From the NCBI GenBank assembly GCA_005116965.1, contig SWDG01000001.1, positions 102,705 to 166,704 of the forward strand: a stretch of DNA of 64,000 nt, given 5' to 3'. Positions within the stretch are counted from its first letter, which is position 1, and every line of letters starts with the position of its first letter. Source of the stretch: Nitrospira sp. Lineage in GTDB: Bacteria > Nitrospirota > Nitrospiria > Nitrospirales > Nitrospiraceae. Below the pieces are notes generated by a model. That model was not told where the DNA came from, did no database searches, and saw only the letters and a list, made by a program, of their open reading frames with translations. The position numbers were made by a program, and so were the translations under genes. Shown here one piece after another: positions 9,412 through 40,435 of this stretch.

Positions 9412-11157
9412 ATGATTGCGCCATCTGATAGGCAAGACGCTGTCGATCGACTACGACCCCTTGCTGGCGTAGTCCTTCTGATGTTCGTGCTCACGCTGGT
9501 TCTGATGGCCAGTCTCTGTGCCGCTGCAGATGATGAGGCAAGGCCGCTGGCAGATGAAGTAGTTGAGCATGCCAAAGCCGTATGGGACCGTGGGGCGGTC
9601 ACGACGGCGCTGGAGATTCTTGATCAGGGTCTGGGCGTTCATCCGGAAGCGGTCATTCTCCACAAAGTACGTGGCGACATCCTTTCGACGTTTCGCAATC
9701 CTCAAGAGGCTGTTCAAGTCTATGACCGAGTGCTTGCCGAGCAGCCCGCTGCGCTGGATGTCCGCTGGGCGAAGTGGGGGCTGCTGGTCCGGTGGGGGCA
9801 GGAAGAGGTAGCGATTGCAGAGCTGCACAACATCGCGCGGAGTGATGCGAAGAATCCTCTCATCCACTGGCGACTGGCGCAAGAACTCCGAAAGCTCGAT
9901 CGGTTGGAGGAATCGCTGGAATCGTACAAGCAGGCGGTCCAGCTTATGCCGGATCTACTCAGCTGGCGACTGGCACTTGCTCGTGCGCGCTTTGACGTAC
10001 TGGATTATCAAGGGGCGGATGCTGACCTCCACCACGTACTCCAGCATGTGGTACCTGGGTCTCCGCTGGAGCTCCCGGCCAAAAACCAACTTGCGCAGCT
10101 CTATGAGTCGATGGACCGGGGACGGCGATTCACGCCGGTATTGACGCCGACTGCCACCGCAACTCAACTCAAAGAATGGGCGGCTCTTCGATCGGAGGCC
10201 TGGAAACTCTTTGAAGCCGGTCGCTTTCAGGAGGGAGAACCGATCTATCGCAAGCTGCTGGCGCTCAATCCCAGCGATCCTATCGCGACGCATCAGTTGG
10301 GGCTGACGCTCATGCAGTTGGGGCAGTGCAAGGAAGCGCTCGCTGTGTTTGGGAACTTGTCGAATCTGAATCCCAGCGAGGAGGATTTCGCGGATACGAC
10401 CTATCGGATGGGTCAGTGTTATGTGGAGTTAGAGCGGTGGGAAGAGGCGTTTGTTCACTTTCAGATCCTCTATGACGCGGCTGTCGAATTTGAACAAGCC
10501 AATAAGGATGTTCCTTTTCCAGCCGGTATCCGTGTCCTGGCAAAAGAGAAGATTGCTCGTTGGCTGGACAAGGTACGGCCCCATGTTCCTGAACTGGTGA
10601 AGCTGAAGGAGGAAGAGGCGAAAGCGGAGAAGCAGTCAGTCAACTCTACATCCGCACCGTCGGAGGACGCGCTGTATGCGAAGGCTGTTGAAAGGCTGAA
10701 GCCACAGAAGACGTTGGATACCGGGGCGGCGATTGCAGGGCGGGATGCGGATTTCAGCTGGTTTCGCTTCGTCATTCCGGCAACCAAAATCGTGCGGGAC
10801 GATTCTCCAACTGGCGCCCACGAGTTTATCCCGCTGTACCCGGGCGATACATTTCCCACCACACAACCAGAAATCTACGTGGTCTTTAAGTTGGTGTCCG
10901 ATTCGTTTGATGCCGTGCCGCTGACTGCACGATGTGGGCTGGAAACATCTGACATGGCTGAAGATCCACTGACGACAGTCCAAGATCGGGTCATGACAAC
11001 GACGAACGATCGATCAGGGTATTTCCTGTTGACCCCTCCGAAATCCAGCTGGACACCTGGATACTACCGTTGTGGCCTCTTTGCCGGAGAACAGACCTCT
11101 GCCTATTCCTATGTCGATGAAGTCCGGTTCCGGGTCATCGAACCCAACCGGCCTTGA
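9412..11157 (+). CDS. TPR-repeat protein with N-terminal membrane anchor
   Basis: A 581-aa protein with a signal peptide or anchor at about residues 17-38 (GVVLLMFVLTLVLMASLCAAAD; the C/AAAD end could be a signal peptidase site). Tetratricopeptide repeats fill about 45-330 (for example EAVQVYDRVLAEQPAALDVRWAKW, RLEESLESYKQAVQLMPD, CKEALAVFGNLSNLNPSEED). A linker (about 395-430) leads to a C-terminal beta-rich domain (about 440-575) that looks like an Ig-like or carbohydrate-type fold; it has no recognised name. Probably a periplasmic scaffold. It stands alone between galE (divergent) and a small membrane gene. Confidence 0.8.
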   Translation: MIAPSDRQDAVDRLRPLAGVVLLMFVLTLVLMASLCAAADDEARPLADEVVEHAKAVWDRGAVTTALEILDQGLGVHPEAVILHKVRGDILSTFRNPQEAVQVYDRVLAEQPAALDVRWAKWGLLVRWGQEEVAIAELHNIARSDAKNPLIHWRLAQELRKLDRLEESLESYKQAVQLMPDLLSWRLALARARFDVLDYQGADADLHHVLQHVVPGSPLELPAKNQLAQLYESMDRGRRFTPVLTPTATATQLKEWAALRSEAWKLFEAGRFQEGEPIYRKLLALNPSDPIATHQLGLTLMQLGQCKEALAVFGNLSNLNPSEEDFADTTYRMGQCYVELERWEEAFVHFQILYDAAVEFEQANKDVPFPAGIRVLAKEKIARWLDKVRPHVPELVKLKEEEAKAEKQSVNSTSAPSEDALYAKAVERLKPQKTLDTGAAIAGRDADFSWFRFVIPATKIVRDDSPTGAHEFIPLYPGDTFPTTQPEIYVVFKLVSDSFDAVPLTARCGLETSDMAEDPLTTVQDRVMTTTNDRSGYFLLTPPKSSWTPGYYRCGLFAGEQTSAYSYVDEVRFRVIEPNRP

Positions 11158-26286: not shown

Positions 26287-26324
26287 GAATCTTTTTAGAT
26301 TCACCGCAGTATCTGAATGGATAC
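26287..26324. promoter_or_regulatory. Tandem palindromic upstream activator sites (set A)
   Basis: Two palindromes with the pattern GnATC-N6-GATnC: GAATC-TTTTTA-GATTC at 26287-26302 and GTATC-TGAATG-GATAC at 26309-26324, exactly 22 bp apart start to start (two helical turns). They lie about 117 bp before a sigma54 -24/-12 element that faces the multicopper oxidase gene. The same arrangement occurs at 40398-40435 and 31489-31526, so these are probably binding sites of one bacterial enhancer-binding protein. Confidence 0.7.
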
Positions 26325-26441
26325 TATGCAGCTTCTCAACACGGCAGTGCACCAGTGTCCTGCCACCTTTTGTATCTCATCATATTTGAATATCTGACGA
26401 CCATTGCTCCGTCTCCTCTGGTGCGGCCATGCAGCTCGACG

Positions 26442-26457
26442 TGGCACCTGGCTTGCA
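26442..26457 (+). promoter_or_regulatory. Sigma54 promoter upstream of multicopper oxidase
   Basis: TGGCAC (26442-26447), five bases, TTGCA (26453-26457): every conserved position of the TGGCAC-N5-TTGCW consensus is present with correct GG-N10-GC spacing. Transcription would begin near 26469, giving a long (about 390 base) leader before the oxidase gene. Upstream activator palindromes lie at 26287-26324. Confidence 0.7.
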
Positions 26458-26686
26458 CCATCGCTACGTACGTATCTACCGAAGGTGGGTCATACGGGCC
26501 TATGCGATACTTCTTGCGACAGACAAGTGGGAGGTATACAAAGGCGGGCCGAAAGATTTTGCAAGACATCCATATTCAGGTGGCGCACGTAACAACTCAT
26601 AAGCACTACCCAGTCATATTCAGGAGTACTGATTTGAAAGATAGTTCAAAGGCATTCAGCCATTTATCTGATGTGAAGGGGGGCAC

Positions 26687-26743
26687 ATGAATGGACAGCG
26701 TGATATCTGGTTCGGAGAGTGGTTCTGGAATGAAGACGATTGA
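26687..26743 (+). CDS. Possible Trp/Phe-rich 18-aa leader peptide
   Basis: ATG at 26687 preceded by a purine-rich AAGGGGGG three bases upstream; the peptide is MNGQRDIWFGEWFWNEDD, TGA stop at 26741-26743. It lies inside the predicted leader of the oxidase mRNA. Three Trp and two Phe in seven residues is unusual. A weak 5-bp hairpin (TCCTC 26785-26789, GAGGA 26796-26800) followed by a T-rich stretch stands between it and the oxidase gene, so an attenuation-like device is conceivable. Chance occurrence cannot be excluded. Confidence 0.3.
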   Translation: MNGQRDIWFGEWFWNEDD

Positions 26744-26860
26744 GTAAGTTTCTCAGAAGTTTCCCAATGGTAGGGTCAAACCGTTCCTCGATGTTGAGGA
26801 TTTGTAATTTTGATGAATCGCTTGTCGAATGAATAGGATATTGGTTTGCGAGGAGGTGTT

Positions 26861-29800
26861 ATGAGATCAGCAGGACAGTATTGGAGTGTGGTGAGCATCG
26901 CAGGTTGTCTGGTTGCCACCGTTGGCTGTTCCGGATTCCACTCCGTAAATCAGCCGCCTCCTCCCCCTAAATGCAATCGCATGATTCAGGCTGAGGTCGT
27001 GGCGCTAGATCAAGCGATTGTCCTGAACCGGTATGGGGCGTTCAATCCCTCTGGCATGTTATTCGCCCTCAAGCAGGATGTTGTGTTGTCCGACGGTACC
27101 CCCCTCAACGACTCCAATCTTAAAGATGCTCCCGGCAAAGTCAAATTACGAGATGACAAGCGCCCTCGGCCCCTCGTGTTACGTGCCAACGAAGGCGATT
27201 GCCTGGAGGTCCGTTTCCACAACCTCCTGATGCCAGCGGTTTCAGACGAACGTACGCGTGGCCCCGAGCAGTACGACGGCAAAGTACCTGGCCACATGGA
27301 AGATCCGAGCGGTGTGGTGTATCCCACTAAGAAAGGCGAGACCGGAAGAGAGCTCGTCACTGCCACCGCGATCAGTAACGATTGGCCGCATACACGGGTG
27401 GCCTCGTTTCACGTCAATGGCTTGGAATATGTCTCTGTATCCAGGGAAGAATGTCCCGTCTCTACCCTGGAACGTCAGTGGGTCTGTGGAATGGATGGAG
27501 ACAATGTCGGCTTAAACCGAGGCCTCGTCAATACCGGTGGAGATCCCGCTATTGATTTGATACGCCCTCAACTTGAGCAGCAAGGCACGCTTGTGAAGCC
27601 AGGGCAAAGTGCGATGTATCGCTATCGCGCATTTCGCGAGGGGACGTACTTTGCCTATTCCGCAGGAGCCACGGTCGGGGGTGAGGGGGATGGCGGCCAA
27701 TTGGGCATGGGCTTATTCGGCGCAGTGAACGTTCAGCCCAAAGGGTCAAAATGGTATCGGTCTCAGATAACCCATCGCGATCTCCAAGAAGTGACCGTCC
27801 TGCAGCCTGGAGAAGCTGGTCGACATCCCTACCGCGTGATTGACTATGAAAAACGCTACGCCTCCGGGCCATTTATGAACCGCCCCATTCTCGCCATGTT
27901 GGATGGGAACGAAATCGTTCATTCAGACCTGAATGCCGTTGTCGTCTTCGACAATCGGCGTCCAGACGGCTCACAGACGGACGGCAACGATACAACGTCA
28001 GCTGAGAAGAGGTGTCGTGATTATGTGGATGGAAATTCTTGCGGGCTTTCTTACCGCGAGTTCACGGTAATCATGCACGATGAAGTGAAAGCCGTGCAGG
28101 CGTTCCCAGAACTCGAAGACGAAAGCAATCCATTGCACTATGTGAAAGATGGGATGGGCATCAATTACGGCGTCGGTGGCATGGGTGCGATGGTCATGGC
28201 TCGCAACCGCAAGGTTGGGCCGGTCAAAGACTGTCCGGAATGTCGAGCAGAAGAATTTTTCTTGAGTTCCTGGGCCAACGGGGACCCGGCATTGATTCTG
28301 AAATGGGACAAGACTCCACACTCGCAGCCGATTGGTGCACTCTATCCGGACGATCCATCGAATGTGCATCACTCCTACCTCAACGATCCTGTTCGGTTTC
28401 GGAATATTCATGCCGGCCCAAAGGAAACGCATGTGTTTCATTTGCACGCCCACCAATGGGTCATGGACCCGAGCGACCCCGGCTCCACCTATCTCGACTC
28501 TCAGACCATTTCGCCGGGCGCCACATTCAGCTATGAAATCGAGTTTGGCGGCTCCGGGAATAAAAATCGCTCTCCGGGTGACTCCATTTTTCACTGCCAC
28601 CTCTATCCGCATTTTGCCCAAGGCATGTGGGAGTTGTGGCGCGTGCACGACGCATTTGAAGATGGCACGCCTAGTCTCTTCAATCCAAAAACCCACGAAC
28701 GCGGGCGCAACTATCCAGATGCGGAAGTGAAAGACGGCATCGAAACCCCAGCGATTGTGCCATTGCCAGGGATAGCATTGGCTCCGATGCCGACGGAAGA
28801 CTTTCGCGGCTACCCGTTCTACGTGGCCGGAGAAGCGGGACATCGTCCACCGCAGCCGCCGCACGATATGGATAAAGATGCGGTGCATGGCTATATCGAT
28901 GGCGGCCTTCCGCGACATGTATTGGCAAATGGGGCAAACACGACAAAGCCTGCGCGCACCAACTCACAGGCCATTAACCAAGATGTGGTGGAGGAAGCGC
29001 TCCATAAAGGCGGCCTCGTGGCACGGCTCAATGCCGCGAAAGTCTATAAACAGAACCCCAACGCACTCCTGGCCTTGGCCGAGCAATGGGAGTCCTTAGG
29101 CGCGTTAGACCGCCTTGATCCGAACGGTGAGCCCAACGAGCGAAAGGCTATTGAGTTTCATGCAGGCGAGTTAATCGCTCCTGGCTTTAAGAAAGTGAGC
29201 ACCTCAAAGCCTCCACATTCGAACCCTCCAGAGAACTGGGAACAGGAGGCCAAAGGATACGTCACCGATTGGGCGACCCCAAAAGGCGAAGCAGAGCGTT
29301 CGGACCAAGCTGTCTTTTTTGTCAATGGTCGGGCACCAGCTGCTGGTGCGCCCTTCGCTGACCCCTGTCCTGCACGCGCACCACAGCGAACCTATAAGGT
29401 GGGCGTACTCCAGACCGAACTCACCGTGAATCGCCATGGGTGGTTTGACCCGCAGGCACGCATTCTCGCGCTTGAGCAAGACATTCAAGACATCATCGAT
29501 CCAGACACGCGGACCCACTTGCCCGAGCCGCTGTTCTTCCGCGCCAATTCTGGCGACTGTATTACCTTCAAGCACTCGAACTTTCTGCCGAATGCGATGG
29601 GGCTCGATGACTTCCAGATTTACACGCCGACCGATACGGTCGGGCAACACATCCATCTCGTCAAGTTCGACGTGACCTCATCCGACGGGTCCGGTAATGG
29701 CTGGAACTATGAAGACGGGACGTTCTCGCCCGAAGAAGTCCGCGAGCGCATCATTGCGTACAATCGGGCGCAGAAAGAGGCGGGGAAGTCCGCGAGTGAG

Positions 29801-31330
29801 TTCTTAGCATTCAAAACACATCCACTCTTCCAAGAAAGCTGTCGTGCAGGCGACAAAAACTGCGCAGAATTGAAAGGAAAAGAAAAGAAGTTGGGCAAAG
29901 GTGATTGTCCGGAATGGTCCACGAGCGAGATAGAGATGGAGAAGCGTGTGCCTAAACTGACTTGGGTCAACGCAGCAGAAAAAGCCGTAATTGATACCCA
30001 GCTCACGAAACTGAAGAAAGACCTGAAGCACATCAACGAAGAGCACCCGTTCTGTGCCGCACAACGGACCGTGCAGCGATGGTATGCCGATCCGATTCTC
30101 GACCCCAAGACGGGGAAAGACTACACCTTGCGCACCGTGTTCACGCACGACCACTTTGGTCCGAGTACGCACCAGCAGCATGGGCTGTACGCAGCCCTCG
30201 TAGTGGAGCCCGCGAACTCGGTATGGCTGCCGCTGGAGAGAAATACACTGACTGCGGAAGAGAAAACGGATTCGAATAAGGTTATTGGTGGAGCAGATAT
30301 CTTCACTGAGCCTCGAAACCCACTGAAGTTGCGAGACGATGGCGGACCGACTGCTACCCGCGCCAATATCATTGCGCCAAAGTGCATCGGCCAAAAAGAC
30401 TCCAATCCTCTCATGCCTGAACAGGCGAGGAAGGATTGTACTGAGGACAAGGAGTTAACCCACGATACGAAGCGCGAGTTCGCAGTAGCATTTGCCGACT
30501 TCGCCATTCTCTACAATACGGCGCTTGAGCCGATCAATCCAGAGGAGCGAGATCTTTCGGCCTTGCGGTTTGGTCATCGCCAGGTGGCGATCAATCTTCC
30601 TAAGCCACTGGCGATTTCTTCAGAAGACCCAGGAACGCAGTTGATTAACTATCGGAATGAGCCGATCCCGCTGCGGATCGCTGATCACACCCCCACTCCA
30701 GAACTCGGTGGATTCGACTACAAACAAACGCCCTGCGCACTTGGTGACTTACGTTGTACAGGAGACATGGCCAATGTCTTCAGCACTCTTGCGCATGCCA
30801 AGCGCGACCACAACCTACTGACGAAGAACTATGGAGCGGTTGTGTCACCCACTACGCGAGAGATTCTGAGGGATGTGCAGTTAGAGCCGAAGCTTGATGA
30901 GGCTCTCAAAAAAATCGAGCACTGGCGTCTGGATTTCAATTGCGCCTTGTACCCGGCAAACGAACAGCCTTCAACTTGTAAAGATAAGCACATCAAAAAC
31001 GAAGAGCCCTGGCGTGTCATGGGGGATCCGGCGACACCGATCCTGCCGGTATACGAAGGTGATCCAGTTCAGATTCGGTTGATCCAAGGTGCGCAGGAAG
31101 CGCAGCACGTCTTCACGATGAATGGCGTGAAGTGGTTAAGGGAGCCGGGGGTGAAGAACTCTGGATACATCAATGCACAACCCCTGGGCATTTCTGAGCA
31201 CTTTGAGTTTGATATCCGAGTGAATCCATTGGGTGCCAGTCAAACAGACTATTTGTACTTCGGTTCGTCTATTAAACATTCTATTATCGGGAGGTGGCTG
31301 ATGAGGTATCGAACTGTTGTGAACACGTAA
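26861..31330 (+). CDS. Giant periplasmic multicopper oxidase
   Basis: About 1489 aa. AGGAGG four bases before ATG 26861 fixes the start. An N-terminal signal (about residues 8-23, ending ATVGCSG) suggests a lipoprotein with Cys 23, or a cleaved signal. Cupredoxin-like domains run throughout. Copper motifs: HVFHLHAHQW (HxxHxH, about 522-530) and HCHLYPHFAQGMW (HCHxxxHxxxxM type 1 site, about 577-588), then HIH at about 929 and HDHFGPSTHQQHGLY at about 1095-1110. All residues for type 1 and for a trinuclear centre seem present, but the order is permuted. Multicopper oxidases couple four one-electron oxidations to O2 reduction. The substrate (metal ion or organic) is unknown. Expression from the sigma54 promoter at 26442 is predicted; the gene converges on the cytochrome operon. 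Confidence 0.9.
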   Translation: MRSAGQYWSVVSIAGCLVATVGCSGFHSVNQPPPPPKCNRMIQAEVVALDQAIVLNRYGAFNPSGMLFALKQDVVLSDGTPLNDSNLKDAPGKVKLRDDKRPRPLVLRANEGDCLEVRFHNLLMPAVSDERTRGPEQYDGKVPGHMEDPSGVVYPTKKGETGRELVTATAISNDWPHTRVASFHVNGLEYVSVSREECPVSTLERQWVCGMDGDNVGLNRGLVNTGGDPAIDLIRPQLEQQGTLVKPGQSAMYRYRAFREGTYFAYSAGATVGGEGDGGQLGMGLFGAVNVQPKGSKWYRSQITHRDLQEVTVLQPGEAGRHPYRVIDYEKRYASGPFMNRPILAMLDGNEIVHSDLNAVVVFDNRRPDGSQTDGNDTTSAEKRCRDYVDGNSCGLSYREFTVIMHDEVKAVQAFPELEDESNPLHYVKDGMGINYGVGGMGAMVMARNRKVGPVKDCPECRAEEFFLSSWANGDPALILKWDKTPHSQPIGALYPDDPSNVHHSYLNDPVRFRNIHAGPKETHVFHLHAHQWVMDPSDPGSTYLDSQTISPGATFSYEIEFGGSGNKNRSPGDSIFHCHLYPHFAQGMWELWRVHDAFEDGTPSLFNPKTHERGRNYPDAEVKDGIETPAIVPLPGIALAPMPTEDFRGYPFYVAGEAGHRPPQPPHDMDKDAVHGYIDGGLPRHVLANGANTTKPARTNSQAINQDVVEEALHKGGLVARLNAAKVYKQNPNALLALAEQWESLGALDRLDPNGEPNERKAIEFHAGELIAPGFKKVSTSKPPHSNPPENWEQEAKGYVTDWATPKGEAERSDQAVFFVNGRAPAAGAPFADPCPARAPQRTYKVGVLQTELTVNRHGWFDPQARILALEQDIQDIIDPDTRTHLPEPLFFRANSGDCITFKHSNFLPNAMGLDDFQIYTPTDTVGQHIHLVKFDVTSSDGSGNGWNYEDGTFSPEEVRERIIAYNRAQKEAGKSASEFLAFKTHPLFQESCRAGDKNCAELKGKEKKLGKGDCPEWSTSEIEMEKRVPKLTWVNAAEKAVIDTQLTKLKKDLKHINEEHPFCAAQRTVQRWYADPILDPKTGKDYTLRTVFTHDHFGPSTHQQHGLYAALVVEPANSVWLPLERNTLTAEEKTDSNKVIGGADIFTEPRNPLKLRDDGGPTATRANIIAPKCIGQKDSNPLMPEQARKDCTEDKELTHDTKREFAVAFADFAILYNTALEPINPEERDLSALRFGHRQVAINLPKPLAISSEDPGTQLINYRNEPIPLRIADHTPTPELGGFDYKQTPCALGDLRCTGDMANVFSTLAHAKRDHNLLTKNYGAVVSPTTREILRDVQLEPKLDEALKKIEHWRLDFNCALYPANEQPSTCKDKHIKNEEPWRVMGDPATPILPVYEGDPVQIRLIQGAQEAQHVFTMNGVKWLREPGVKNSGYINAQPLGISEHFEFDIRVNPLGASQTDYLYFGSSIKHSIIGRWLMRYRTVVNT

Positions 31331-31377
31331 TTCTCGTAACGTAGGTATTTATTTCACTAGTCGTGATCAGCATAAGT

Positions 31378-31393
31378 AGCAATACACATGCCT
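31378..31393 (-). promoter_or_regulatory. Sigma54-like element antisense to oxidase 3' end
   Basis: Minus strand AGGCAT, five bases, TTGCT: nine of eleven consensus positions, with the invariant GG and GC correctly spaced. It would transcribe leftward into the 3' end of the multicopper oxidase gene as antisense RNA. Associated by position with activator set C, 95 bp away. Weaker than the other two sites. Confidence 0.3.
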
Positions 31394-31488
31394 TCAGTAT
31401 CGCCTGTAGCAAGATGAAACAGCCGCTTAAATAATAAAGGCTTATGCGGGGTGACTGTTGTCCTGTTGCAATGAAAATGCAGGAGCCT

Positions 31489-31526
31489 GTATCGAAATAG
31501 ATCCTACGTTGTATCGAATCAGATAC
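31489..31526. promoter_or_regulatory. Tandem palindromic activator sites (set C)
   Basis: GTATC-GAAATA-GATCC at 31489-31504 and GTATC-GAATCA-GATAC at 31511-31526: again a pair of GnATC-N6-GATnC-like sites with 22-bp spacing. The second is a perfect arm match, the first has one mismatch. It sits in the convergent space, where no promoter for a protein gene is expected, so it may serve an antisense or small RNA promoter or be a relic. Confidence 0.55.
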
Positions 31527-31692
31527 GTTCGGTATTCGATCATGCGTCTGATCTGCAGTGGAAATATGTTGAGAGTTGAGTCAGATGGTGGGCGGGTTGG
31601 ACGACCGCCTACGTGCAAGTGATGGTAAAGCGCACGCTCTCTGCTTCAGCGTGGCTGTCAGTGCGTAGGTTTTCCGTGCTTGGTTTGTGGAG

Positions 31693-33189
31693 TTACAGCA
31701 TTTTTAGATACTCCATCAAGGCATCTTTGTCTTTATCAGGCAGCTCAGTGCCAAACGTGTGGCCCTGGTTGCTGCTGGCGCGCTGACTGACATCAAACTT
31801 AGTTCCGATTCGCTCGACATCCTCACGTAACTGCTCCCGTTCACGGTCATCCGTGAGCCCGATTGTATCGGCCTCTTGTTTCGTCGTCACGAAACCCACT
31901 TTGATCGGGTTATAAACGGTATACCCACGGAAGAAGCTCATGGGTCGTTTCTCGACCGGCTCCAATAAATCGCGCAGAGTCGGCACGGCTCCGTGGTGCA
32001 GATAGGGCGCTCGGAGCCAGATGCCGTCGAGGAAGGACGCGACATAGCCGATCAGTGGTTCCTCGACGAGCCCTTTGCGTTCAAGCCCAAACTCGCGGAC
32101 AACCTTGTTCGCTTTGATCGCGGCTTCTTTGCTCCACGTATCAAGCCGTCCTCGGTCGGTTCCAACTTCGGCGATCGGCACTCGGGTTCCCGTTCGTTCA
32201 CTGGCATGACAGGAGGCACAGGCCTGATCGAAGACTAATTTGCCCGCCGTTGCTTTGGCCTGGTCAATGGGAAACGGATACTTAGGAGGCGGGTACTTCC
32301 CGAGATAGTCCTCAAACCAATCAATATGCCCAAGAAATTCCGTCTTGCTCTTGGGGCGCGCGCCAACTAACCCCAGGGCCGAATCCATAATGACCGACCT
32401 AGCGTCGTGGCTGTCACCGGCAAGATTCATGAAGTGGCCCTTCTCCGGTCTGTACTTCTGCAGATTCCAGATCGAAGGCATATCGGTAGGGCCGGTGCTA
32501 TTGTCCATCGGTTCTTCGATCATAAAGTACTTTGTCAGGTTCATCGCATCGTCACGGCCGCGCCCCCATTCTGGGAAGTCCTTGCGATAGATCCAGGCGA
32601 ACTGCTGCTCGCGCTCGATCAGTCGCTTTTTCGTGATGGGAATCAGCAGGTACCTATAGATCAACTTGTCGATCCAGCTCAGATCCGCGACGAGTCGAAT
32701 TTCACCCATCAAGACGTCTGAATTGAAGCGCGGGTCCTTAGCGACGTCGACAAGCAGACGAAAGAATGTCTCTAAATTAAGAGTGTGATTGGGGCCGGCG
32801 ATGACGAACGTGGGCTTGTCGCTTGGCTTTGCTCGCCAACTGGCGACATGGCAGGAAGAACAGGTGTTTCCGATACGCGCAAACCCAATGACGCGCTTGG
32901 TGAAGCCGATCGGGATCTCTTGGCCCTCTTCCCACTGAATGCCGAGCGAGGTGTAGCCGCCTGGCCCTGGGAACTTATCCCCAAAGACCCGCGGGATCAC
33001 GTACCAGATCCAATAGGGGAGACCTACCTCATGTTCGGCGCCGATCGATCCGTACTTGAACCGCATGTCCGGGTCCTTCGTGATCCATTCAGGAATACCT
33101 TCATCGCGGAAGAACTTGTACCATCCGACGTAGGCACCAACTAGACCAAGGATGACCAACAGCAGGAGAATGATCTTCAGCTTTCTCAT
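31693..33189 (-). CDS. Membrane-anchored di-heme cytochrome c, peroxidase/RoxA-like
   Basis: 498 aa. ATG 33189 with AGGAG 10 bases upstream gives an N-terminal anchor (MRKLKIILLLLVILGLVGAYVGWY); the frame extends upstream to 33420 without support. Haem motifs: CSSCH (about 109) and CASCH (about 325). The C-terminal LDGIWLRAPYLHHGAVPTLRDLLEP ... FFRGY is characteristic of di-heme cytochrome c peroxidase/RoxA-like proteins, which include rubber oxygenases. It shares about the whole plan with the next gene upstream and is the last of the five-gene operon, 19 bases after it. Located in the periplasm, tethered to the inner membrane. Electron donor and substrate unknown. Confidence 0.88.
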   Translation of the reverse strand: MRKLKIILLLLVILGLVGAYVGWYKFFRDEGIPEWITKDPDMRFKYGSIGAEHEVGLPYWIWYVIPRVFGDKFPGPGGYTSLGIQWEEGQEIPIGFTKRVIGFARIGNTCSSCHVASWRAKPSDKPTFVIAGPNHTLNLETFFRLLVDVAKDPRFNSDVLMGEIRLVADLSWIDKLIYRYLLIPITKKRLIEREQQFAWIYRKDFPEWGRGRDDAMNLTKYFMIEEPMDNSTGPTDMPSIWNLQKYRPEKGHFMNLAGDSHDARSVIMDSALGLVGARPKSKTEFLGHIDWFEDYLGKYPPPKYPFPIDQAKATAGKLVFDQACASCHASERTGTRVPIAEVGTDRGRLDTWSKEAAIKANKVVREFGLERKGLVEEPLIGYVASFLDGIWLRAPYLHHGAVPTLRDLLEPVEKRPMSFFRGYTVYNPIKVGFVTTKQEADTIGLTDDREREQLREDVERIGTKFDVSQRASSNQGHTFGTELPDKDKDALMEYLKML

Positions 33190-33208
33190 CGTGACCACAC
33201 TCCTTTCC

Positions 33209-34750
33209 TTAGAACGTCTTGAGGTATTCAACGAGAGCGGCTTTATCTGCGTCAGAAAGCTCGGTCCCGTACCGAGCCCCTTCATGTCCATCGCGGCCGT
33301 TGCCCGGAAGCGAATGTCCCGTGTCATCGGCTGTGTCGAACAGGAAAAACTGCTGGCCTTGTTCTTCACGTACCGTCGAGACGAACCCCACGCGCTGTTG
33401 ATCGTACACATCGTATCCACGATAAAATTGCGTGGGCCGCTTACTCCGAGGCTCCAAGAGATCTCTCAACGTGGGGACTGATCCGTTGTGGAGATAGGGC
33501 GCCCGCAGCCAAATGCCGTCCAGCGGTAGGTTGGTATAGCCGTTGGTTTTTCGGAAATGAGAAAACCGTTCGTCGGGATTCTCGCTGCCTGCGTAGAGGA
33601 GATTTTGATTCACAGCCAGATCGTAGGTGTACGAGTCCAATCGGGAGGGATCGGTTTTGATGTCTGCGATCGGCACCACCTTGCCCACGGTCTCGCCGGT
33701 AAAGTTCCTCCCACTGACACCGTGACAGCCCGCACAGTATGTACGGTAAATCAGCGCGCCTTTCGCCGCGATTGGCTGATTGATGGGGAAGGGATAGGGC
33801 GGTGGCTCGCGGGTCAGCAGCCAGTCCTCCACTCGTTTCATCGCCGTGCGATCGAGCGTGGGTGGTGTGGCTCCGGTGCCGAACGCCGCGCTCCGATTGC
33901 GCTCCTCGACAGCGGTGTTGTTGCCGTCCCAGTGGAGTTGCATGCCGATCCTTGGTTTCTGCAGCCAGATGGAGGGAAAGTCGACGACGCCGACCTGTTC
34001 TCGAAGCGGAATGTTGTCCATCCGGAAGTTCAACAGCGCCTTGGCAAAGGCAAAGGTATCGACTCGACCAGGTCCCCACTCACGGGTCGGGCCGTTGTCG
34101 AGCATGAAGGAGAGTCGTTGATCTAACATGACCAGTCTTGCCCGCATGAGATGGACGGCGACAGGGTAGACGATGAATTGATCAAAGAGACTCAAGCCAC
34201 CGCCCAGCTCTTGGATCGTGGGCACGATAAGATCCGGCGAAAAAGCCGCGCTCTTGGCGCAGTCAAACAGAAAGCGTTCGAACCCCATAAGATTCAACCG
34301 ATGGGCGGGCATGCCGGTATAGAGCCGAGGTTCGCTCGTCGGCGTCTCACGCACCGTACTCGCATGGCAACTCGCACAATTCAGAAAAACACGGTCGAGT
34401 CCCATATGTCGCCGCATCGACATGCCGACGGGCAAGGGCTTTTCCCCTTCGTACAGGAATCCCAGCGCTTGATATTCCTGTCCAGGATACCGTTGCCCCT
34501 CTGGTAGGTGGGCGGCACAGACGCGAGGCAGTGCCTTCCAGATCCAGTAGGGAAATCCCGCTTCGCGCTCGCCACCCAGCGATCCGTACTTAAAGTGGTC
34601 TTCATCGTCGGCATAGCGAACCGGCTCATCCACCAGAAACCGGGCTGCGAGTAAGCTGGCAATGGTCATGAAGAGAAACAGAGTGGTGAGGCAGAGCACC
34701 TTCCACCAGTTACAACGTGTGTTGTGCCCGTTGATCATGGTGTCACCCAT
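33209..34750 (-). CDS. Membrane-anchored di-heme cytochrome c, paralogue
   Basis: 513 aa. Membrane anchor at about residues 15-38; haem motifs CASCH (about 129) and CAGCH (about 345). Shared with its downstream neighbour: FKYGSLGGEREAGFPYWIWKALPRV after the anchor, GPGRVDTFAF, and GIWLRAPYLHNGSVPTLRDLLEP ... RGYDVYDQQRVGFVS. The two are therefore tandem paralogues. Starts at ATG 34750 or 34738; neither has a perfect ribosome site. Probably part of one extracytoplasmic electron-transfer or oxygenase complex with the other operon products. Confidence 0.88.
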   Translation of the reverse strand: MGDTMINGHNTRCNWWKVLCLTTLFLFMTIASLLAARFLVDEPVRYADDEDHFKYGSLGGEREAGFPYWIWKALPRVCAAHLPEGQRYPGQEYQALGFLYEGEKPLPVGMSMRRHMGLDRVFLNCASCHASTVRETPTSEPRLYTGMPAHRLNLMGFERFLFDCAKSAAFSPDLIVPTIQELGGGLSLFDQFIVYPVAVHLMRARLVMLDQRLSFMLDNGPTREWGPGRVDTFAFAKALLNFRMDNIPLREQVGVVDFPSIWLQKPRIGMQLHWDGNNTAVEERNRSAAFGTGATPPTLDRTAMKRVEDWLLTREPPPYPFPINQPIAAKGALIYRTYCAGCHGVSGRNFTGETVGKVVPIADIKTDPSRLDSYTYDLAVNQNLLYAGSENPDERFSHFRKTNGYTNLPLDGIWLRAPYLHNGSVPTLRDLLEPRSKRPTQFYRGYDVYDQQRVGFVSTVREEQGQQFFLFDTADDTGHSLPGNGRDGHEGARYGTELSDADKAALVEYLKTF

Positions 34751-34774
34751 CTCGTGGTAGTGTTGGCCTTCGAC

Positions 34775-36715
34775 CTATCCATGCTGTGCTCCCATCGCTG
34801 CTGTCGGCTCATGACTCGGTGCCAGGCAAGCCGGTAAGGTGTCGTAGTCCTGCTGCAGTAAGTGTTCTGGGCGGAACGCTGCGCCCCGCTTTTGTTGAAT
34901 TGCCGCTACGGCTTCTTTACGAAGCGCTTGCAAATCAGAATGACGTTTCCACTCGTCCAGACTGATTCGGTGATGGAGCAGGTGCATAGCCGGCGGCATC
35001 GGCGCCTCAAGCTGCTCGTGGCTTGAAACGTCCCACATACGTAAGCGCACGAAAATGCGATCGGCACATTGCGCCAAATTGGCTTTGACTTCAGCGGGAG
35101 GTCCATGGAGAAAGTTCGGGGGAAAGCTCTCTGCTCCATGGTGGCAAGTCCCGCAATACTGATGGAACGTCCTGTATTCACCGGTCGGCGACGCTTCGTG
35201 TGCGGCATCTGTTGAGTGATGGGAGGCAGCCTCGTCGTCCACTGGCGGTGGGATGCCGCGATCGTCAAGACAGCAGCGTGACACGACCGGAGCTCCCAAC
35301 TGCTGATCGAGCGCAGCTAAGACCGTCACACGGCGGAACGGCTGGTTCGCGAACACATCGGTCCGTCCCAGCACGGTGTTGTGTGCTAACGCATTCACAG
35401 CTTGTTGGAGCCGATTTGGTTGTCGATGGATCAGCTGTTCCAGCCGGGTGAGATCTGTCTTCGTGAAAAACTGTACAAACGTAGCCAAGACTCGCTCAAG
35501 CGTCTGCGGAGTATCCGGGATGGCCCAGATCTCAAACGGCTCGCGAGGCTGGGTCGGTTCGTAGGGGCCGCGGAATATGGATCGTGGTTCTCGTCCCTCA
35601 AGCGCGGTCGCTTGTACTTCACTGAGCCCTGGAAATTCACTCACCGCGACATATCGAAAGGGATTACGATTGGGAATATCCGGATTGGGAATGGCCAATC
35701 CTTGTGGCCAGCGTGTGCGCCAGGTTGCAAGAAAGGACGGTGATTTCTCGTCCGTTGTGCGCCAATCCGGTGTCGCTCTCTTCGACAGTCCATATTGAAG
35801 GACCCACGTGAGCAGTTCGGCACGACAGGTCATGGCCTGTACCGGATGGTGTGTCTGTTCACATCCCTCTCGCCAGAGTAACTGGGCCAGCGATATGTCA
35901 TTGGCTCGATCGGTGGCCTCATCGAAGGCCTGCAAGGTTCCAGTCCCTTGTTGAATGGGGAAGCCGTGGTACTGACGGCGTTGGTGAGCCAGCAAGGCGG
36001 CGATTTTAGGATTGACGTTCGTTTCGTCCCACATGGGACGGGCAAAGATGGGGCTCTGATTTTGATGGCAGGCCATACAGAGGGCACGATTGGCGTATCG
36101 AACCGTTGGTGTTCCACCGGCCCGATAGTCGCTCACAATCTGAAACTCAAACCGGCCGGCTGCTTCGTTATAACTGACGACTTCTAAGACTCCGGTTTTT
36201 TCATGGTAGCCGATGAACAGTCGGTCTTTGAGCTGCATGCCGGATAGGCCTAAGTTCGGAGTGATTTCGGTATCGACGGCAAACACCGCCCTCGGATAGG
36301 TAAAGTACGCGCCATTGCTGGCTCGCCGCTGCAGGGAACGGTTGACAGGAATCAACAATCGCTTCAGGACGGGCGCGGTATCTTTTGGGTGGAGCTGAGA
36401 TTCAAGTTGTGCCACGAACGCAGAAAATGGAAACGGGATGTCATAAATATTTTTCCCGTTCACTTCTTTCGTAATCAGGAAGTCAAACAGAGACCGCCCG
36501 ACCGGCGGGAGGTTTGGGCCTGGTTTAGTCGGATCGATGACCCACGGAGGTGTCGTGGAGGCGGCAGGCGCCGGGGGAGAGGATTGGGTATACGAAGCAG
36601 AAGCGTTGACGTCAGATGTCTCTCTATTCTGTTGATCGCATCCTGAAACCAATACCGTCATCATGACCAGGCATCCCAATTGTGTCGCGCACCGTTTCGC
36701 CACTGTCCGTTGCAT
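34775..36715 (-). CDS. Di-heme cytochrome c lipoprotein
   Basis: 646 aa. A lipoprotein signal (CLVMMTVLVSGCDQQ; lipobox VSGC, Cys 26) is followed by a Ser/Pro/Ala linker. Haem motifs CMACH (about 212) and CGTCH (about 527). Segments between them (FQIVSDYRAGGTPTVRYANRALCMACHQNQSPIFARPMWDETNVNPKIA) resemble no family I can name. The C-terminal haem domain contains PMPPAMHLLHHRISLDEWKR, a possible axial-ligand Met region. It differs from the RoxA-like pair and may be the outer-membrane-anchored component. Spaced 24 bases from both neighbours. Confidence 0.82.
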   Translation of the reverse strand: MQRTVAKRCATQLGCLVMMTVLVSGCDQQNRETSDVNASASYTQSSPPAPAASTTPPWVIDPTKPGPNLPPVGRSLFDFLITKEVNGKNIYDIPFPFSAFVAQLESQLHPKDTAPVLKRLLIPVNRSLQRRASNGAYFTYPRAVFAVDTEITPNLGLSGMQLKDRLFIGYHEKTGVLEVVSYNEAAGRFEFQIVSDYRAGGTPTVRYANRALCMACHQNQSPIFARPMWDETNVNPKIAALLAHQRRQYHGFPIQQGTGTLQAFDEATDRANDISLAQLLWREGCEQTHHPVQAMTCRAELLTWVLQYGLSKRATPDWRTTDEKSPSFLATWRTRWPQGLAIPNPDIPNRNPFRYVAVSEFPGLSEVQATALEGREPRSIFRGPYEPTQPREPFEIWAIPDTPQTLERVLATFVQFFTKTDLTRLEQLIHRQPNRLQQAVNALAHNTVLGRTDVFANQPFRRVTVLAALDQQLGAPVVSRCCLDDRGIPPPVDDEAASHHSTDAAHEASPTGEYRTFHQYCGTCHHGAESFPPNFLHGPPAEVKANLAQCADRIFVRLRMWDVSSHEQLEAPMPPAMHLLHHRISLDEWKRHSDLQALRKEAVAAIQQKRGAAFRPEHLLQQDYDTLPACLAPSHEPTAAMGAQHG

Positions 36716-36739
36716 CGTGTAGCCGACTCATACCTGCAT

Positions 36740-37660
36740 TCAATGGGTGTCCGTTAACCGAGCCTGTTGGTTGTCGGACTTGTTGGTCTTGGCAGTCAGA
36801 CGCTGATTGCCCACCCAGCAGTCCTCTGTCACCGAGCCAGAACTGGTAAATGCCGGAGATTCCTTCTCCGCCACAGCCTTGTTGTAGAGCGTGAAGTTCA
36901 AGGCAAAGACTTTCTTGATATAGGCTCGTCCCAGATAGAATCCCGGGCGGACCATCCGGATTTCGTCGCGTATGTCCAACCCTTCCCGCCCGGCTAATAC
37001 GTCCGGCATCTCGCGGTAGCCTGGCAGGTCGTCGGTAAACGCGTAGTCGATAATGACCGATTCTCGACGCCCATCCAGCAGACTCTGGCCGCAATAGAGT
37101 TTGGCGGGGAACAGTAACCAGGCATCTTTCCCGTCGACGTCGATCTTTTGGATCTTTTCCACGTTGGGACCGACGATCGGTTTCAGGATCAACAGATCCT
37201 GGATGCGATTCCGGAGGACGCCTTCGTGGCGATAGAAGACCTTCCCTTTCCAGATGAATTCTCCGATGTGTTCAAGCGTGGCGGCCTTGCGATCGACGAT
37301 GAAGCCTTTGATGCCTCCTCCGACGATCTCGGCCAGACGGGCCCGTTCGCTCGATCCCTTGGGGAAAAACATCTGCCCGTCGTAGGCTCCATCCGGAATC
37401 GGGCCGGCCGTCAGGCGGGCATAGATTTGATCCACCTGTTCCTGTGTCGCGCCCTTGAGATTCTCCGGTGTGATCTTCGCCAGATCGGCTGGTGTGAGTG
37501 GTAACTCGTGTTCCAGCCGGGCAAGGTCCATCTTGTCGGAATAGTATTCGCCGCTTTGAGCATAGGGGATTTGCGGGGGATCCGGGTTACCCGGACAGCC
37601 AAGGAGCACCGTTTGGCTCATGGCTAATCCTACCGACATCAACCATCGTGCGCGTTTCAT
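36740..37660 (-). CDS. Haem-free lipoprotein of the cytochrome operon
   Basis: 306 aa from ATG 37660, which has AGAGGTGAT about eight bases upstream; the frame's earlier Met residues overlap the preceding gene. Signal MKRARWLMSVGLAMSQTVLLGCPGNPDPP with lipobox LLGC. No haem motif. Central segment DGAYDGQMFFPKGSSERARLAEIVGG and DLLILKPIVGPNV suggest an all-beta or mixed domain; three cysteines, one near the C-terminus (EDCWVGNQ). Not recognised. Being the only non-haem member of the operon it may be a scaffold or substrate-binding lipoprotein. Confidence 0.78.
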   Translation of the reverse strand: MKRARWLMSVGLAMSQTVLLGCPGNPDPPQIPYAQSGEYYSDKMDLARLEHELPLTPADLAKITPENLKGATQEQVDQIYARLTAGPIPDGAYDGQMFFPKGSSERARLAEIVGGGIKGFIVDRKAATLEHIGEFIWKGKVFYRHEGVLRNRIQDLLILKPIVGPNVEKIQKIDVDGKDAWLLFPAKLYCGQSLLDGRRESVIIDYAFTDDLPGYREMPDVLAGREGLDIRDEIRMVRPGFYLGRAYIKKVFALNFTLYNKAVAEKESPAFTSSGSVTEDCWVGNQRLTAKTNKSDNQQARLTDTH

Positions 37661-37688
37661 CGTGATCACCTCTTTCCGGTTCATGACA

Positions 37689-40127
37689 TCAGAGCGTCGC
37701 AAGAAATGCGGTCAGCGCATCCTTGTCTTTGTCCGAGAGATCCTCGCCGAACCTATGTCCATTATTTTCAATGACCGCCAGACTGTTGCTGTAGACTTCC
37801 CGCAGTTCCGCTCCGGCTTCGAGGATCGATCCTGGCTTTGCCAGCAACTCCGTGCCCTTGTCTTGAATGGTCTTGGCAATCTGTTCGCCCTTCTCCGCCC
37901 CATACCGGCCGACATATTTGGCTTTCAGCTTGTCGACGTCGACTCGTGCCATGACGAGATCTCCCACCAGCTCCTTGTGACGGAAGTTCCCGATACGGGC
38001 AGCCGGCGTGCCGACTGGAAAGCGAATGGCGGTGTCGATAAACCGTTCAATCTTGCCGTCCCCCAGCTTTGGAAACAGGCGAATGGTCACCTCCGAGTTG
38101 AATCCGGTCACCTTTGGAATTCGTTGAGCAGGATTCAGCAACTCTTTCATCGACGCTTTGTAGAGCTGGAACCGGCCCTCTACACTAGGATCGAAGAGCC
38201 AACAGGTCGGAGGACTCGTTAACGGCTTTCCATCCTTGTCCACATAAGACGAATGGTAGTGCTCGTCGACAGGCCCGCCGCAGACTTCGGGACCGACGGC
38301 GTTGTTGTGCATGAAGGGGGCGTAGGCCCAGAGACTGAGCAAGGAGATGTTCCGGTAATAACCCCGTCCACCGTCCGAAGGCTCTTTGAGCTGCGGGTCA
38401 CCAGGCTTTGCCCGCAATGTTTCGGAGCCGTATTCTTCCCAGACGCGCCCCTGCATGTGATTCGAGTGGAGGGAACGTGAACGGTTTGTCCCGATCTCGC
38501 TGACGGGGACGAGCTTGTCGTTACCGAGCCAATCGATGCGAACGCCCTTGTCCTTCGGGTCCGTGGAAACTGTTCGGAAATCCTTCTTCTCGAACGGCGC
38601 ATTTTGGCTGGAATGGCATGAGGCACACTTGCTCGCAAACACGGCACGGCCCTGTTCGACTGCGCCCTTTCCAAATTCCTTATTGAGTTGTTCGACGAGG
38701 GCGGTGTTGTTCTTCAAGCCGCGGGCTTGGTAGAGGTCGGCTGGGGCTCCGGTAAACAAGAACTGACGGATTTCGTCCAAGCGGTCTTCAATTGCGCGGA
38801 ACTGGGGGCAGTCGCGGCGAACTTGCCCGATGTCAAACGGTGTCTGGCCGAATCCGCGCATGGTGGGATCTAGCTGTCGCATGTCTGTGAGGTGATTGAC
38901 CCAGCCTTCCTCGGAGCAGCTTCCGATGTTGAAGTAGACGCGCTGAATCGCTTCGAGGGCACCAATGCTGTCTTCTCCACCTTTTAGAATGTGGTGAACG
39001 AACTCCTTCTTACGGCCCCGTTCCCAACACTTGCCGTCTTTACCCGGCTCACACCAACAGGTTCGTTCATTTCCACCAGCCGGGCACTGGTTGGTCTTGC
39101 GCCATTTGATGATGTCTTCTTCAAAGGTCGGACGACGGGCCAGATTGATGAGGGCGTTCATCGTGCCGGAGTTATTGACCTGATCGTTTGGAATCGCCGA
39201 GGTATCGACGGCACCAGGGCGCGAATGCCCATAGATCTGGTACTCAATGGTGTTTGCAGCCATGCCTGACCCTAAGATCTGCGCGAAACGGCCGTACTGA
39301 TTGCCGACTGTTCCTGAGAGGTTCTCCCATTTCGGGTGGATCGGATCTTTGGGAGGATGAATGGGATCGAACGCAATATGGCACGCACCGCAGGACATGC
39401 CGATGCGATAGGGAGGTTCAATCGAGCCGTCGATCAGATGACTCTTGGCCGGCGCTTCACGGTCTTTGCGCGGCGTCACCTTGGCGGTATAGCCGTCCCA
39501 TGAATCGAGCTGTCCGCCGTTGATTTTGAGCCATTTCACCTTATCGAACTTCGGATTGGGGAATTTTCGAAGCCCCAGCGCGCCGGTTGAGGTTCCGAAT
39601 TCAAGATCGCAGGTTGACTGTCGCACATCGTTTGGCCCGTGTGGATCCTCCTTCGCGAGTGGGACGTCTTTCAGATCACAGGCAGGATCGCGATAACCGG
39701 TCTTTCCGACATGCTTGAGCAATTCGTCGTCACCCGGACAATAATCGAACCCATAGGTCTCGTCATAACTTTTCGCCGGACAGGTGGGATCTCCCGGCTT
39801 ACAGCAATCCGGATCGTTGATGAGCCCCCATCGATAGAAGCGGTCATTGCGTGAGTCGCTGCGCAAGACCCGATACCAATCGATCATGACACCGAGCCGC
39901 TGCTGATAGACGTAGGTGAAGAACCGGGCGTTGCCGGCCGTGGCGTTGAACCAAATCTCTGCTCCAACCCGTTCGGCATCCGTCAGATTCTTGCTATAGT
40001 GAAATGATGCAGCGCTGGCAGTGGTGCTCCCAGCGGTAGCTATTTCAACGTGGAGCCCTAGCGAGCCGGCAAACACAACCAGGCCAAGTATAAGCGTGAT
40101 CACGGTGTGTGTCCGTCGTATGACCAT
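37689..40127 (-). CDS. Large di-heme cytochrome c, peroxidase/RoxA-like
   Basis: 812 aa, first gene of the operon. Signal peptide at about 1-32 (TVITLILGLVVFAGSLGLHVEIATA). Haem motifs CGACH (about 250) and CASCH (about 506). Cys-rich inserts (DCCKPGDPTCPAK, CWCEPGKDGKCWERG) may form disulfides. Typical of the di-heme peroxidase-like group: GTMNALINLARRPTFEEDI, SEIGTNRSRSLHSNHM, GYYRNISLLSLWAYAPFMHNNAVGPE; the segment resembles FRPxxLPxLW..APFLHN motifs of RoxA relatives. Larger than usual because of N-terminal and C-terminal additions. Probably soluble in the periplasm or secreted. A sigma54 promoter and activator palindromes lie upstream. Confidence 0.88.
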   Translation of the reverse strand: MVIRRTHTVITLILGLVVFAGSLGLHVEIATAGSTTASAASFHYSKNLTDAERVGAEIWFNATAGNARFFTYVYQQRLGVMIDWYRVLRSDSRNDRFYRWGLINDPDCCKPGDPTCPAKSYDETYGFDYCPGDDELLKHVGKTGYRDPACDLKDVPLAKEDPHGPNDVRQSTCDLEFGTSTGALGLRKFPNPKFDKVKWLKINGGQLDSWDGYTAKVTPRKDREAPAKSHLIDGSIEPPYRIGMSCGACHIAFDPIHPPKDPIHPKWENLSGTVGNQYGRFAQILGSGMAANTIEYQIYGHSRPGAVDTSAIPNDQVNNSGTMNALINLARRPTFEEDIIKWRKTNQCPAGGNERTCWCEPGKDGKCWERGRKKEFVHHILKGGEDSIGALEAIQRVYFNIGSCSEEGWVNHLTDMRQLDPTMRGFGQTPFDIGQVRRDCPQFRAIEDRLDEIRQFLFTGAPADLYQARGLKNNTALVEQLNKEFGKGAVEQGRAVFASKCASCHSSQNAPFEKKDFRTVSTDPKDKGVRIDWLGNDKLVPVSEIGTNRSRSLHSNHMQGRVWEEYGSETLRAKPGDPQLKEPSDGGRGYYRNISLLSLWAYAPFMHNNAVGPEVCGGPVDEHYHSSYVDKDGKPLTSPPTCWLFDPSVEGRFQLYKASMKELLNPAQRIPKVTGFNSEVTIRLFPKLGDGKIERFIDTAIRFPVGTPAARIGNFRHKELVGDLVMARVDVDKLKAKYVGRYGAEKGEQIAKTIQDKGTELLAKPGSILEAGAELREVYSNSLAVIENNGHRFGEDLSDKDKDALTAFLATL

Positions 40128-40308
40128 ATCTTCCTCCTGTTCGTACGAATCCCCGCTCTAATGGAGTCCGTCGCCCGCATGTGCATGAGAGGATTTCTCA
40201 TGTGCAGCAAGCTTGTTGTGAGCAGCACGAGACGATTCTGAACTGGTCGTTCTGGTTGCTCGCTGAATCTCTAGGCGAGATTCAGTAGGACTCAGCAAGA
40301 AGGAATAG

Positions 40309-40324
40309 AGCAAGCACCTTGCCA
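40309..40324 (-). promoter_or_regulatory. Sigma54 promoter of the cytochrome operon
   Basis: Minus strand TGGCAA (40324-40319), GGTGC, TTGCT (40313-40309): one mismatch to TGGCAC-N5-TTGCW, with the invariant GG and GC present. About 180 bases before the first cytochrome gene; transcription from about 40297. Activator set B lies 73 bases upstream. Confidence 0.65.
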
Positions 40325-40397
40325 AGTGGCGAGGTGAAGCTGACTGACACATTTGTTTGGATTTGCACAAGAATCCCAATAATCATCGTGGGTTGTT

Positions 40398-40435
40398 GTA
40401 TCTGATCAGATACTGACGTGGATCAGAAAAGATAC
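40398..40435. promoter_or_regulatory. Tandem palindromic activator sites (set B)
   Basis: GTATC-TGATCA-GATAC (40398-40413), a perfect 16-bp palindrome, and GGATC-AGAAAA-GATAC (40420-40435), 22 bp apart. On the minus strand they are upstream of the sigma54 element at 40309-40324 at a distance usual for NtrC-type activators. Same pattern and spacing as sets A and C. Confidence 0.7.

Follow-up and report, generated by a model that had tools for sequence, protein, structure and literature searches.

Paired palindromes with outward-facing sigma54 elements suggest a common enhancer code at a multicopper oxidase gene and a cytochrome operon of Nitrospira

The window analysed here is a stretch of 64,000 nucleotides from Nitrospira sp. 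(GenBank assembly GCA_005116965.1, contig SWDG01000001.1, positions 102,705 to 166,704). It carries, in this order, mutS2, palindrome pair A, the plus-strand gene of an MnxG-like multicopper oxidase, pair B, a five-gene cytochrome operon on the minus strand, pair C and glyQS (Table 1). An earlier reading of these letters alone, hereafter the sequence-only reading, had described the three pairs as tandem palindromes of the form GnATC-N6-GATnC at an exact spacing of 22 bp, and all six 16-mers are present as it described them. Read at position 2 of the half-sites, the codes of the three pairs are AATT, TGTT (pair B) and TTGT (pair C).

Such an arrangement is not expected by chance, as the sequence-only reading had maintained. 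Single palindromes occur seven times in the window against 2.1 expected, a number reached in 0 of 100 shuffles, and six of the seven belong to pairs A, B and C. We defined an exact pair as GNATC-N6-GATNC-N6-GNATC-N6-GATNC and used the same pattern read backwards as a control. A search of the organism's whole 3.73 Mb genome returned three exact pairs, all of them within the window, and none for the reversed control; from the 16 fixed bases, about 0.001 would be expected. The further claim, that the pairs define one regulon, is supported with one correction: the code of pair and sigma54 element is shared, but it is not confined to the window. When one or two mismatches or a spacing of 21 bp are allowed, at least eight more candidate pairs are found in the same genome (C1:14656, C1:188760, C5:48307, C6:701810, C6:707038, C6:569625, C6:440964 and C27:453242, named by contig and position). 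Each has an outward sigma54-like element, and the regulon of this genome would therefore comprise about eleven candidate promoters.

The pairs are tied in direction and in distance to sigma54 -24/-12 elements. Both elements to which the sequence-only reading had pointed are present, the one facing the oxidase at 117 bp from pair A and the one facing the cytochrome operon at 73 bp from pair C; pair B, to which it had assigned none, has a third at a distance of 95 bp. These distances differ by steps of 22 bp, equal to the two helical turns between the palindromes of a pair, and the three elements have 0, 1 and 1 mismatches to TGGCAY-N5-TTGCW. Some 130 loci around pairs were fetched and scanned on both sides for elements lying 40-176 bp from the pair, with at most two mismatches allowed and with one G of the -24 and the GC of the -12 fixed. 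In the genus, an outward element was found at 137 of 158 pairs and an inward one at 5 of 158, while 5% of random intergenic points (n=812) had one. With at most one mismatch the count was 67 outward and 0 inward, and in other genera 21 of 30 pairs had an outward element, against one inward. The offsets from pair to -24 lie mostly between 60 and 140 bp and cluster at about 62, 74, 85, 95, 106, 119 and 135-141 bp; once related sites are collapsed, their best period is 11.4 bp (R 0.52), which was matched by 0 of 5000 jittered sets. The sites also avoid coding sequence: only 2 of 142 fall within open reading frames (ORFs) of at least 150 amino acids, though such ORFs make up 77% of bases. A random scatter of the pattern through genomes, the outcome that would have spoken against the sequence-only reading, is thus not seen.

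Table 1. Features of the window discussed in the text, with positions counted from its first letter.
Feature	Position	Strand	Remarks
Enhancer pair A (predicted)	26287-26324		GAATC-N6-GATTC + GTATC-N6-GATAC, 22 bp start to start; 16-mers GAATCTTTTTAGATTC at 26287 and GTATCTGAATGGATAC at 26309
sigma54 -24/-12 element	26442-26457	+	TGGCAC-N5-TTGCA, TGGCACCTGGCTTGCA, no mismatches; faces oxidase, 117 bp downstream of pair A
MnxG-like multicopper oxidase lipoprotein	26861-31330	+	1489 amino acids; four copper-ligand regions (HxH motifs) all kept
Rearrangement junction	31270-31330		oxidase ORF, then M48-gene leader fragment, then inverted promoter-B region
sigma54-like element	31378-31393	-	AGGCAT-N5-TTGCT, AGGCATGTGTATTGCT; minus-strand orientation, 95 bp from pair B; orphaned here
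Enhancer pair B (predicted)	31489-31526		GTATC-N6-GATCC + GTATC-N6-GATAC, 22 bp; 16-mers GTATCGAAATAGATCC at 31489 and GTATCGAATCAGATAC at 31511
RoxA-like diheme cytochrome c	31693-33189	-	last gene of the operon
RoxA-like diheme cytochrome c	33209-34750	-	
Exported protein with CxxCH motifs	34775-36715	-	no family match
Putative lipoprotein	36740-37702	-	no family match; TTG start assigned mechanically
Multi-CxxCH exported cytochrome	37689-40127	-	di-heme peroxidase/RoxA-like C-terminus; first gene of the operon
sigma54 element	40309-40324	-	TGGCAA-N5-TTGCT, TGGCAAGGTGCTTGCT; directed at the cytochrome operon, 73 bp from pair C
Enhancer pair C (predicted)	40398-40435		GTATC-N6-GATAC + GGATC-N6-GATAC, 22 bp; 16-mers GTATCTGATCAGATAC at 40398 and GGATCAGAAAAGATAC at 40420

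The same arrangement recurs well beyond this genome. Of 79 genomes in the genus, 48 have exact pairs, with up to 12 per genome, as do 56 of 296 Nitrospirota genomes; all carriers belong to the order of the window (genera g1, g2, g4, g5, g9 and g11 of family f1 and g14-g18 of family f2), exact pairs are absent from the sampled genomes of other orders or classes among these 296, and the reversed control gave 0 throughout. When the gap between two GTATC-N6-GATAC palindromes was left free from 0 to 30 bp in 30 genomes, only gaps of 4-7 bp, a spacing of 20-23 bp, occurred among the matches listed. Arrays of three palindromes in steps of 21-22 bp are found at L156 (5008-5068), L158 (5086-5146) and L167, adjoining genes of the activator family L053 discussed below. 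Conservation upstream of orthologues, for which the sequence-only reading had asked, is seen as well: the first gene of the cytochrome operon is kept together with its pair in seven other genomes, and pairs lie upstream of related oxidase genes in L106 and L129 and also, with a spacing of 21 bp, in L012. Because of this taxonomic range, the outward sigma54 elements, the spacing of 20-23 bp and the helical phasing, we take the pairs to be a predicted lineage-wide sigma54 enhancer code.

Based on these data, we propose that the pairs are upstream activating sequences (UAS) of an NtrC-family sigma54 activator, the architecture that the sequence-only reading had recognised and with which the outward elements and the phasing agree. 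We put the probability of this reading at roughly 0.88, a figure that excludes the identity of the activator; its strength comes from the directed sigma54 association and the helical phasing. Two activator dimers would bind the two palindromes, two helical turns apart and on the same face of the DNA, and would assemble into an active ATPase ring. With the intervening 73-117 bp looped, the ring would open the sigma54-RNA polymerase waiting at the -24/-12 element. Pair A would in this way serve the oxidase promoter and pair C that of the cytochrome operon, whereas pair B would serve a promoter whose operon has been lost. Binding, ring assembly, looping and activation are what we infer from the arrangement of the sites. 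Paired palindromes are typical of repressor operators too, and the pairs might instead bind a repressor or nucleoid protein, with coincidental matches to the -24/-12 consensus. We regard this as very improbable given the outward bias, the 5% background at random intergenic points and the phasing of the -24. The presence of three copies inside 14 kb could also suggest chance or a mobile repeat family, such as a REP-like element or an insertion-sequence end. That explanation was ruled out by the reversed controls, the phylum survey and the directed sigma54 association, and since the spacers differ and the pairs are kept at orthologous loci in a fixed relation to sigma54 elements, we give it a negligible chance.

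Which protein would read the sites is less certain. The genome has 22 matches to Sigma54_activat, corresponding to about 20 activators, none of them on the contig of the window, and it encodes NtrC-family AAA+ activators with an HTH_8 domain; rpoN would be expected in a genome with so many activators. The search for a co-occurring activator, which the sequence-only reading had recommended, yielded two candidate families that repeatedly lie right beside pairs in the fetched loci, L053 and L056. Its claim that a single regulator ties both transcription units together is upheld as to their shared architecture, but a single regulator is an inference, and at least two paralogous activators with the same architecture and different half-site preferences seem to be involved.

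L056 (C12:685332-686669) has an AAA+ domain (PF00158, 230 bits) whose loop reads GAFTDA in 38 of 38 homologues, a variant of GAFTGA of a kind counted as functional in PMC4641369. Its receiver is degenerate and does not qualify as a phosphorylatable one, scoring 23.5 bits against the Response_reg cut-off of 30.2, and position 52, the usual phospho-Asp, is Glu in 30 of the 38 homologues and Asp in 8. The recognition helix of its helix-turn-helix (TRNTLRYR) is invariant in all 38. L056 genes lie less than 600 bp from a pair at eight loci. In the family of the window, L056 is present in 51 of 51 site-bearing genomes, and the five members without a detectable L056 match all lack an exact pair (Fisher p ~0.004, calculated by hand and uncorrected for phylogeny). 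L053 (C5:46780-48225) is a response regulator whose gene adjoins a histidine kinase gene, with an ABC-type binding protein and a TonB receptor also upstream; an assignment as PEP-CTERM PrsR was rejected at 396 bits against 502.6 for TIGR02915.

The two families differ in the half-sites beside them. Position 2 is T in 20 of 32 half-sites beside L056 versus 6 of 100 beside L053, a comparison in which the sites come mostly from two orthologous groups and p values overstate independence. The codes of pairs B and C, TGTT and TTGT, occur next to L056. On this evidence, together with its co-occurrence with the sites, we favour L056 as the activator of the GTATC-rich pairs of the window, at what we judge to be even odds, and L053 probably serves a subclass flanked by GAATC or GCATC. 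The same enhancer architecture might instead be read in the window by L053 under the control of its neighbouring histidine kinase. About 20 genomes have a pair 80-300 bp downstream of an L053 gene, and L053 (at least 60% identity) is present in 44 of 48 site-bearing genomes of the genus versus 3 of 31 without sites, a co-occurrence on which L053 was at first favoured as the sole regulator. This idea was dropped because L053 is absent from 16 of 16 sampled site-bearing genomes of genus g2 and because the sites beside L053 avoid GTATC half-sites, unlike the pairs of the window. GTATC/GATAC-flanked pairs make up 35 of 38 in genomes without L053, one of them beside an oxidase gene in G034, versus 61 of 162 where L053 is present; some of the g2 pairs had been gathered with a pattern restricted to GTATC, but nearly all g2 22-bp pairs listed are also GTATC-flanked. 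We therefore consider L053 a rather unlikely activator of the window's pairs. One of the roughly 18 remaining activators could also read the enhancer, since sigma54 activator domains number about 20 in this genome and adjacency and co-occurrence support L056 only indirectly. With L053 and L056 the families repeatedly found beside pairs in the fetched loci, this too seems doubtful.

Several observations weigh against our proposal. Apart from the dependence among the adjacent sites just described, the activator comparison covers two of about 20 activators in the genome, L056 is found in one of five site-bearing genomes of the sister family (the other four have no detectable match), and it is also present in 24 of 240 genomes without an exact pair. 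In addition, the scan between enhancer and promoter gave no convincing sites for integration host factor (IHF), which are predicted in the mnx promoters of Pseudomonas (PMC11930936).

Every feature that we tested agrees with the pair code being a further case of an NtrC-type UAS. The sites of NtrC, NorR, ZraR and FlrA are likewise tandem dyads, placed ahead of a -24/-12 element at distances from tens of bp to 150 bp; what differs here is the code, G(T/A)ATC-N6-GAT(A/T)C with a fixed pairing at 20-23 bp, and its restriction to one order among the Nitrospirota genomes surveyed. In its sigma54 regulome, Desulfovibrio vulgaris likewise has numerous activators, one of them with GAFTDA, for which dyad motifs are predicted, and the main text of that study contains no GTATC/GATAC motif (PMC4641369). 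In the literature searched, we found no description of the half-site code, the fixed pairing, the order-level range or the possible split between two activators, nor of a Nitrospira sigma54 regulon. In Vibrio fischeri, the paralogous activators LuxO and SypG use similar tandem UAS at one shared sigma54 promoter, and a D53E substitution in SypG is phosphomimetic (PMC10162802). Whereas those two act on one promoter, the two half-site subclasses described here appear to divide promoters between the candidates. The native Glu of L056 resembles SypG D53E, and on this ground we speculate that L056 might be constitutively active or controlled through its level. Tentatively, the whole could be an order-wide code read by two paralogous activators that use one architecture, paired palindromes two turns apart, and split the promoters between them according to one base of the half-site (GTATC versus GAATC/GCATC). 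One would be a phosphorylatable response regulator, and the other would have GAFTDA and a receiver fixed in a phosphomimetic state; together they might switch on mostly exported oxidases, cytochromes and hydrolases.

The nearest parallel to the oxidase promoter is found in Pseudomonas, where mnxG and mcoA are controlled by MnxS1/MnxS2-MnxR through sigma54 and an NtrC-family activator (PMC11409713, PMC11930936) and an rpoN mutation abolishes Mn oxidation in strain MS-1 (PMC11409713). An MnxG-type oxidase under such control would parallel our reading of the window. The oxidase of the window differs, however, in falling below the cut-off of the curated MnxG profile NF041487 (687.5 bits against 3100), by which it is only a distant relative of MnxG; its closest named relatives come from Nitrospira genomes, and no such site was found upstream of the proteobacterial homologues L005-L011.

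First genes downstream of pairs across the genus include MnxG-like oxidases, RoxA-like cytochromes and peptidases of the M48, subtilase, papain, neprosin and caspase types. Others encode a TPS exoprotein, a protein with a Tle1-like hydrolase domain, a TonB receptor, a cytochrome P450, a polyketide synthase and an outer-membrane efflux protein. Many of these products look exported, in agreement with the reported theme of sigma54 as a controller of the bacterial exterior (PMC3162934). The one-mismatch pairs at C1:14656 (L078) and C1:188760 (L077) of the genome studied here, with outward sigma54 elements, face genes that we assign as caspase-like and Tle1-like hydrolase genes from their homologues in the genus.

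In soils, water works and sewage, Nitrospira are the main nitrite oxidisers and the comammox bacteria; they are difficult to work with genetically, and their gene regulation is little mapped. A readable promoter code of pair, spacing and sigma54 element should make it possible to draw up regulons for dozens of genomes using nothing but their sequence. The code places the MnxG-like oxidase and RoxA-like cytochromes under common control with several proteases and further exported enzymes, and it bears on whether and when Nitrospira oxidise manganese; MnxG has been reported to be encoded in Nitrospira metagenome-assembled genomes from sand filters (PMC12070406).

In the strain studied here, control of a working oxidase is doubtful, because the protein is probably truncated at its C-terminus. 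It has 1489 residues, about 550 fewer than its relative L004 (2050 residues, 77% identical), and the loss is C-terminal. The open reading frame ends at the junction, where 31270-31313 matches the M48 leader at L102:5247-5290, and the final oxidase residues derive from that leader. The junction might reflect an actual rearrangement or an assembly mis-join, and the oxidase may be a pseudogene. In L101 and L102 the orthologue of pair B lies ahead of an M48 metallopeptidase gene, and its promoter would drive an M48 peptidase operon there, which is its usual target; this operon is missing from the window. The 256 bp around pair B (window 31312-31567; L102:4992-5247) are 100% identical to genome G016 against 92.7% for the mutS2 flank, a difference that suggests recent exchange.

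Between the promoter and the oxidase lies an 18-codon ORF with a strong ribosome-binding site (26687-26743, MNGQRDIWFGEWFWNEDD), which is probably not a gene because no similar peptide occurs in any scanned locus, including those of the closest oxidase relatives. In about 20 genomes, the L053 gene is closely followed by a pair with a sigma54-like element (L076 at ~9908-10700 and orthologous loci); the next genes differ or are distant, and a small RNA is possible there. Elsewhere, the mutS2-linked pair faces, instead of the oxidase found in the window, a conserved ORF some 55-59 codons long that has a strong ribosome-binding site (L201, L176, L085, L102, L229, L231, L232, L224, L086, L117 and L090).

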